Source: Sphingomonas sp. Leaf242 (lineage in GTDB: Bacteria > Pseudomonadota > Alphaproteobacteria > Sphingomonadales > Sphingomonadaceae). From it: a stretch of DNA of 64,000 nt. Positions within the stretch are counted from its first letter, which is position 1. Every line of letters begins with the position of its first letter. The position numbers and the translations under genes are program-made. The notes below the pieces were generated by a model, which was not told where the DNA came from, ran no database searches, and saw nothing but the letters and a program-made list of their open reading frames with translations. The stretch lies in the NCBI RefSeq assembly GCF_001422045.1, contig NZ_LMLW01000001.1, positions 70,972 to 134,971 of the forward strand, read 5' to 3'. Of this stretch, positions 40,652 to 41,898 are shown one piece after another.

Positions 40652-41074
40652 ATGCCGCGCAAGATCGATCTGGAAGCACTCTGCAACGAGAAGGGCCTGC
40701 GCATCACCGAGCAGCGTCGCGTCATCGCGCGCGTGCTGTCCGAGGCGGACGATCATCCCGACGTCGAGAAGGTCTATGAGCGCGCGTCGCAAATCGACCC
40801 CGGTATTTCGATCGCGACAGTCTACCGCACCGTTCGCCTGTTCGAAGAAGCCGGCATTCTCGACCGCCACGATTTCGGCGACGGTCGCGCGCGCTACGAG
40901 CCTGCACCCGAAGCGCATCACGATCACCTGATCGACGTCGAGAGCGGCAAGGTGCTCGAGTTCGTCGATCCCGAACTCGAGCAGTTGCAGAAGGCGATCG
41001 CGGAGAAGCTCGGCTTCCGGCTGGTCGATCACCGCATGGAACTCTACGGCGTCGCGCTCACCCGCAAGGACTGA
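40652..41074 (+). CDS. fur: Ferric uptake regulator (Fur/Mur)
   Basis: 140 residues: DNA-binding half with RITEQRRVIARVLSEADDHP and IATVYRTVRLFEEAGIL, then the metal-sensing half with EAHHDHLIDVESGKVLEF. The CxxC zinc site of enterobacterial Fur is absent, as usual for the alphaproteobacterial Fur/Mur branch. Senses Fe2+ or Mn2+. The last codons carry AAGGA, which doubles as the RBS of plsC. Confidence 0.92.
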   Translation: MPRKIDLEALCNEKGLRITEQRRVIARVLSEADDHPDVEKVYERASQIDPGISIATVYRTVRLFEEAGILDRHDFGDGRARYEPAPEAHHDHLIDVESGKVLEFVDPELEQLQKAIAEKLGFRLVDHRMELYGVALTRKD

Positions 41075-41078
41075 CGCG

Positions 41079-41792
41079 ATCAGCCGAACCCGCTTTGGCG
41101 CGCGGCTGGCGGCGCTGCTGCTGGCGCTGGTCCTGGCGTTGCCGCTGCACGGGATGTGGCGGCTGTTTGGCCAAAAATCGCCTTGGCCCCCGCGGTTCCT
41201 GGGACTGGTCGCGCGCATTGTCGGCGGTCGGGCGCGGGTGGTCGGCACGCCGCTCCGCCACGACGTGGTCTTCGTCTCGAACCATCTGAGCTGGATCGAC
41301 ATCCTCCTCCTGTCCGGCGCGACCGGTAGCGCGTTCGTGGCGAAAGCCGAGTTGCGCAGCGCGCCGCTGGTCGGCTGGCTCTGCATGCTGAACCACACCA
41401 TCTTCGTCAGCCGTGGCGACCGCATGGCGGTGACCGCCCAGATCGCGCAGATCCGCGACGCGCTCGCCTCGGACTGGCCGGTGACGCTGTTTCCGGAGGG
41501 GACGACGGGCGACGGCGTTACTCTGCTGCCGTTCAAGGCGGCGCTGCTAGCCGCGTTGGACCCGCCGCCGCCCGGCGTGAAAGTTCAGCCCGTCCGGATC
41601 GATTATGGCGCGGCGACGAGCGAACTCGCCTGGGTCGGCGACGAGCCGGGCCAGCATCACGCCGCGCGCGTCCTCAAACGCAAGGGCAGTTTCGTCGCGA
41701 CGCTACACTTCGCCGAGCCGTTCGACCCCGCGCAATACGGCGACCGCAAAGCGATCGCCGCCGAAGCCCGCCGCCGCATGGAAGGGCTGTAA
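41079..41792 (+). CDS. plsC: 1-acyl-sn-glycerol-3-phosphate acyltransferase (PlsC-like), ATC start proposed
   Basis: 237 residues if begun at the ATC at 41079. The LPLAT motifs are VSNHLSWIDILLL (NHxxxxD) and TLFPEGTTGDG. The frame upstream of the first usual start (TTG at 41139) encodes FGARLAALLLALVLALPLHG, the membrane helix expected at the N-terminus. No ATG, GTG or TTG lies before it, but AAGGA is exactly eight bases before ATC AGC CGA, just after the fur stop. A change ATG to ATC would explain this. A TTG start would remove most of the helix. It acylates lysophosphatidic acid. Confidence 0.88.
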   Translation: MSRTRFGARLAALLLALVLALPLHGMWRLFGQKSPWPPRFLGLVARIVGGRARVVGTPLRHDVVFVSNHLSWIDILLLSGATGSAFVAKAELRSAPLVGWLCMLNHTIFVSRGDRMAVTAQIAQIRDALASDWPVTLFPEGTTGDGVTLLPFKAALLAALDPPPPGVKVQPVRIDYGAATSELAWVGDEPGQHHAARVLKRKGSFVATLHFAEPFDPAQYGDRKAIAAEARRRMEGL

Positions 41793-41812
41793 GCCGCGAG
41801 CACAGGATGTTT

Positions 41813-41858
41813 CCCCGCGAAGGCGGGGATCCAGACTGGACTCCCGCCTTCGCGGGAG
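41813..41858. repeat. Double hairpin, CCCCGCGAAGGCGGGG family
   Basis: CCCCGCGAAGGCGGGG and, 10 bp on, the inverse-type CTCCCGCCTTCGCGGGAG. A near-identical element lies at 54088. It follows the plsC stop and may aid termination. Confidence 0.85.
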
Positions 41859-41898
41859 AACAAGGAGGGGACGCTCCCACCCATCCTCAAACTCGAGC

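Follow-up and report, generated by a model that had tools for sequence, protein, structure and literature searches.

At which codon does translation of an acyltransferase gene begin, if the stretch encoding its N-terminal helix is mostly located upstream of every usual start codon? This question is raised by a gene directly behind fur in Sphingomonas sp. Leaf242, found in a window of 64,000 nucleotides (contig NZ_LMLW01000001.1), the window being the whole stretch of DNA that was analysed. AUH starts are on record for few bacterial genes, and such starts are misplaced by gene finders built on ATG, GTG or TTG. The features required to follow the argument are:

40,652 to 41,074, forward strand: fur, encoding a Fur-family regulator (open reading frame call; PF01475, E 1.9e-39)
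41,066 to 41,070, forward strand: AAGGA, a Shine-Dalgarno-like stretch within the sequence encoding the Fur C-terminus, 8 nt before ATC
41,072 to 41,074, forward strand: TGA, stop codon of fur (open reading frame call)
41,079 to 41,081, forward strand: ATC, the proposed start codon, which would be read by fMet-tRNA; referred to as codon 0
41,079 to 41,792, forward strand: PlsC/OlsA-like acyltransferase, 237 amino acids counted from ATC (PF01553, E 9.3e-20)
41,082 to 41,165, forward strand: N-terminal helix of the acyltransferase, residues 2-29 in an AlphaFold2 model
41,139 to 41,141, forward strand: TTG at codon 20, the first usual start in frame

A first-pass annotation had described AAGGA followed by eight bases and ATC AGC CGA ACC CGC behind the fur stop, and this arrangement was recovered as described, with ATC at 41,079 and a gap of 4 nt between the stop and ATC. 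The acyltransferase frame extends without a stop from a point 49 codons upstream, within fur, to 41,792, and in this frame no ATG, GTG or TTG occurs before TTG 41,139, the 49-codon upstream stretch in fur included; the earlier observation that the N-terminal helix is encoded before every usual start is thus borne out for most of the modelled helix. The last codons of fur contain the predicted ribosome-binding site of the acyltransferase gene, whereby AAGGA is judged a probable Shine-Dalgarno sequence by its general form and spacing, with the general bacterial anti-Shine-Dalgarno as pairing partner. On the 16S side, a family search in three genomes gave no match, which does not imply absence, as the control detects 9 of 14 known genomes. 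Candidates for the 16S 3' end from a pattern search, one match per genome, were rejected as not being rRNA, with no Rfam match in L206 and L205. No structural element of the RNA was indicated at the start site, where the folding energy equals that of shuffled sequences (z 0.03). As a separate observation, a palindromic element with arms 85% complementary is located at 41,808-41,862, immediately 3' of the acyltransferase gene; at least 80 matches are listed in the own genome, nearly all of them this element and on both strands, the scoring having covered 40 of 344 candidates.

Of 295 genomes of the genus that were searched, 25 gave a match with an E value no higher than 1e-112, and 23 of these, more than 80% identical to the window protein, constitute the close group, which includes S. 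faeni, S. aerolata and S. aurantiaca and provides 22 distinct sequences over the compared stretch. Codon 0 is ATC or ATT in all 23 genomes (ATC in 20 and ATT in 2 of the distinct sequences), and on the tree of the 22 sequences it has changed 0, 0 and 2 times at bases 1, 2 and 3. The neighbouring codon -1 has changed 7, 2 and 2 times and occurs in six forms (GCG, CCG, ACG, CTG, CCC and CGC); equally, codons +2 and +3 change often. On its own, conservation of codon 0 is modest evidence, as 9 of codons 1-30 are likewise unchanged at bases 1 and 2. In all 22 sequences, AAGGA is found 7-9 nt from codon 0, within the working distance of a Shine-Dalgarno sequence, and none of them possesses a usual start between the fur stop and codon 2. 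The neighbouring genes in the 23 loci served as control: fur begins with ATG in 23/23, rimI in 22/23, the exception (L055) displaying ATG five codons upstream, and tsaB has a usual start in all 19 readable loci, 4 being cut. A genuine, conserved AUC start at 41,079, as had been proposed in the first place, is therefore supported by the comparison with relatives and provides, with high though not complete confidence, the best explanation of the locus.

Further evidence is gained from 57 short-type homologues outside the close group. Codon 0 is a usual start in 12 of them (ATG 8, GTG 3, TTG 1), so that the expectation that homologues show ATG at this position holds for distant relatives, for example L028, L032, L035 and L057, and fails throughout the close group. 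In 33 of the 57 outgroups, codon 0 or codon -1 is a usual start, and those with ATG at either position encode the same N-terminal stretch. The other 24 rows are without a usual start at these two positions; in most of them one occurs within a few codons, none is found near in L030, L084, L126 and L139, and L123 and L128 are probably mis-anchored. L028, with ATG at codon 0 and an interval of 187 nt between fur and the acyltransferase gene, groups with the close group on the tree (100/99), beside L027, a placement which is weak (83/13) and on a long branch. The interval in L028 holds an inverted repeat, recognized by eye. As usual starts occur at codon 0 in outgroups and in L028, the position is a start position. 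In 9 of the 33 outgroups, the usual start is codon -1 and ATC stands directly after it, at codon 0; isoleucine at codon 0 might consequently be kept for other reasons.

The protein itself is an acyltransferase of the PlsC/OlsA family. It possesses the PF01553 domain, the HX4D and FPEG motifs and a fold with the N-terminal two-helix motif, and among 25 homologues H69 and D74 as well as F138 to T142 are invariant. The AlphaFold2 model (mean pLDDT 85.3, with block means of 86-91 over residues 1-30) displays a helix at residues 2-29 followed by a helix at 36-47, and VIA-align superimposes it on PlsC of T. maritima (5KYM) with Z 21.0 and 2.4 A over 214 residues, the aligned range extending from 1 to 237. 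Such a two-helix N-terminus belongs to the PlsC fold, according to the accessible part of the structural literature (PMC6688108). The family placement in the earlier name, plsC, thus stands, but no specific NCBIfam cut-off is reached: TIGR00530, PlsC proper (1-acylglycerol-3-phosphate acyltransferase), scores 76.6 bits against a cut-off of 102.95, and the best matches, to the lyso-ornithine lipid acyltransferase OlsA (NF052553 and NF052552), score 124.9 and 123.5 bits against a cut-off of 300. The sequence EGTT replaces the EGTR motif, T142 being invariant and T143 nearly so in the 25 homologues, while EGTR is present in a paralogue encoded on contig C8, whose start is ATG. With respect to its sequence, 'plsC' is a loose label for the acyltransferase gene behind fur.

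Among the alternatives, the one that survives best, though unlikely, is a start at a downstream usual codon, either TTG 41,139 or the NTG codon 13, with the upstream stretch untranslated. Gene finders restricted to ATG, GTG and TTG would pick such a codon, 15 of the 22 sequences carry TTG or GTG at codon 22, and codon 13 is NTG (CTG, GTG or TTG) in 22/22, inside the first helix and after the invariant Arg9. Counted from codon 0, the first usual start is, however, scattered over the group, located at codon 3, 9, 12, 13, 18, 20, 22, 43 or 62 depending on the strain: L011 has GTG at codon 3, the position of TTG 41,139 is unconserved, codon 20 being a usual start in 3 of 22 sequences, L027 (Leaf20) offers its first at codon 43, and L053 (S. 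aerolata NW12) at codon 62, shortly ahead of the catalytic NHxxxxD (N68, H69). In addition, the stretch that would be left untranslated is under coding constraint in the acyltransferase frame. The dN/dS ratio is 0.34 for codons 1-9 and 0.40 for codons 1-19, higher than the value of about 0.1 for the rest of the gene; for codons 1-19, the two other reading frames give 0.79 and 5.8. Over 25 homologues down to 53% identity, R9 is invariant and R5 near-invariant. Initiation at TTG 41,139 would, judged by the AlphaFold2 model, cut into the first helix and delete most of it, and the same stretch follows ATG in the outgroups described above.

Somewhat less probable still is a start at another non-AUG codon, either codon -1 or an ACG found towards the end of fur, at codon -11. 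Codon -1 is CTG in L022 and ACG in L016, and in the outgroups, the fur tail holds ATG at codon -11 in L079 and L094 and a similar ATG at codon -8 in L141. On the other hand, codon -1 is GCG, CCG, CCC or CGC in 20 of the 22 close-group sequences, and the frame of codon -11 is interrupted by a stop in L012, L014, L024, L027 and L053 and shifted in L025 and L026.

Very improbable is the absence of a separate start, with ribosomes crossing from fur into the acyltransferase gene by frameshift or readthrough of the stop. In most strains the frame stays open well into fur, for 49 codons in Leaf242, and within fur L021 has an in-frame TTG at codon -23 and L022 one at codon -27, which other members of the close group are without. 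Yet the gap between the fur stop and codon 0 measures 3 nt in L012, 4 nt in 19 sequences and 5 nt in L025 and L026, so that within one group the acyltransferase lies in all three frames relative to fur, and L014, L024, L027 and L053 carry an in-frame stop at codon -7. A shared fusion, a frameshift and a start inside fur are thereby excluded as a common mechanism. Finally, a sequencing error or private G-to-C change of ATG in Leaf242, the second option of the first-pass annotation, has nothing beyond the rarity of AUC in its favour and is refuted by ATC or ATT, the same or a synonymous codon, in 22 further genomes (19 named records). In summary of the sequence comparison, AUC is most likely the real start, whereas sequencing error, fusion and downstream start are unlikely.

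How might initiation at AUC 41,079 operate? The acyltransferase would be initiated by fMet-tRNA at this codon, AUC, which stands at a suitable spacing from AAGGA near the end of fur and is, by sequence comparison, the sole start-like codon kept there across the close group. As starts, AUC and AUU would belong to the class discriminated by initiation factor IF3, namely starts with a central U other than AUG, GUG and UUG. IF3 discriminates against start triplets without a 3' G, according to the available part of a published study (PMC4611024). Because AUC lacks the 3' G, IF3 would be expected to reject most initiation complexes at this codon, and expression would therefore be low and tied to the level of IF3. 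The gap of 3-5 nt in 22/22 sequences corresponds to the stop-start proximity of a coupled gene pair, and ribosomes ending fur, 4 nt upstream in Leaf242, may raise the local supply and partly offset the weak codon by termination-reinitiation coupling. With respect to its origin, the AUC/AUU state probably arose by loss of an ATG or GTG at or next to codon 0, with AUC or AUU subsequently carried on. As a practical consequence, automatic annotation in the close group probably truncates the membrane helix or misplaces the start.

The close group is not alone in departing from usual starts behind fur. In a sister lineage (L084, L126, L139, L141 and L156), GTT is found 6-8 nt from (A/G)AGGA behind the fur stop. 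L084, L126 and L139 have no usual start near GTT, L141 has ATG inside fur, and L156 is frameshifted, with TTG four codons after GTT. In L156 and L169 (genome G049), the acyltransferase frame is broken after the first helix, with 2 TGA inside, representing a pseudogene or an assembly error. L101, L117 and L111, of a long N-terminal type, equally have no usual start near the fur stop, and CTG is the likeliest start-like codon. In L101 and L117, this CTG overlaps the fur TGA (CTGA).

The association with the distance from fur was counted in 72 of 112 fur-linked loci, those of the short N-terminal type, with the frameshifted L156 dropped and 19 loci without the anchor motif excluded. Of the 38 loci with a distance to fur of at most 10 nt, 29 are without a usual start from the fur stop to codon 2, 22 of these 29 loci being one close group; of the 33 farther loci, 3 are without one. 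All 33 short-N-terminal loci with fur more than 10 nt away possess a usual start, 30 of them by codon 2 and 3 at codon 3. This association has P 9e-9 when counted by sequence, the sequences being related, and P 0.12 after collapsing into 15 clusters at 80% identity. That missing usual starts go with a short distance to fur is thus suggestive, and a coupling that relaxes the start codon is, after collapsing of relatives, to be regarded as a lead. It is conceivable, although rather doubtful, that start-codon identity is relaxed at the fur-acyltransferase junction in general, with ribosomes ending fur restarting where the stop codon and AAGGA set the position, and with drift of the codon to AUC or AUU (the S. 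faeni group and L030), GUU (L084, L126 and L139) and perhaps CUG (L101, L117 and L111). As a natural start codon, GUU would, if this is true, be extremely rare. The site in any case represents a natural series of AUC, AUU, GUU, AUG, GUG and UUG behind the same upstream gene, near to or far from its stop, which is suited to ask how far a close upstream stop can stand in for a good start codon, and whether translation capacity is linked to the synthesis of membrane lipids through IF3.

Does Sphingomonas use such codons elsewhere? In 7/7 Sphingomonas loci examined, the proposed start of infC, the gene for IF3, is ATA (5 loci) or ATC (2 loci) behind a Shine-Dalgarno-like stretch, a count which leaves out G006, where the gene is split in two pieces, and G007, which gave no match. 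In the own genome, infC seems, by its sequence, to start at ATA (L198:1450-1452, contig C9); 4 of 6 relatives (the other loci being L196, L197 and L199-L202) have two ATGs a few codons downstream, where the own genome reads ACG ATA. Outside the genus, ATA was found in one and ATG in two of three loci. The infC starts AUU, AUC and AUA, which serve the autoregulation of IF3, resemble the acyltransferase start in a third base other than G, a Shine-Dalgarno-like stretch at normal distance and conservation in relatives. In contrast to infC, the acyltransferase is not IF3, is without a direct feedback loop and is located 4 nt behind the stop of another gene. The AUU start of pcnB is a second case in E. 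coli, and ATC starts occur in Deinococcus.

With its AUC start, the acyltransferase gene joins the rare class of infC, pcnB, sigR and ccpN and is of a known rare kind. A literature search, with articles accessible in part, returned nothing that joins Sphingomonas, plsC and the start codon, and no AUC start for a PlsC/OlsA gene. In the accessible sections of one report, pcnB with AUU appears in a reference list, and for Staphylococcus aureus cvfC1 (AUU) and ccpN (AUA) are described to reach about 10% of the AUG level in poor medium, ccpN up to 30% in rich medium (PMC13009471). These two genes represent a conserved AUN start that lowers expression; the acyltransferase gene shares the conserved AUN start, and a lowering of its expression would be expected. 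On the other hand, ccpN and cvfC1 have extended Shine-Dalgarno motifs, whereas the acyltransferase gene has a plain AAGGA and a close upstream stop (PMC13009471, same sections). For this latter feature, termination-reinitiation pairs offer the comparison: in the available portions of two studies, they display the same few-nucleotide distance between stop and start as fur and the acyltransferase gene (PMC6728339; PMC10666635), reinitiation requiring a very short stop-start distance (PMC10666635), although no pair with an AUC or GUU start was found in these portions. Streptomyces provides a further comparison, as sigR with a GTC start and infC with an ATC start are reported in the accessible part of a publication (PMC5472188). 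Like the acyltransferase gene, sigR has a conserved non-canonical start that would be missed by annotation, and its repression by IF3 has been demonstrated (PMC5472188). Equally, sigR is a member of a coupled gene pair, of which it is the first gene, whereas in Sphingomonas the odd start belongs to the second gene, on which IF3 might act in a comparable way.
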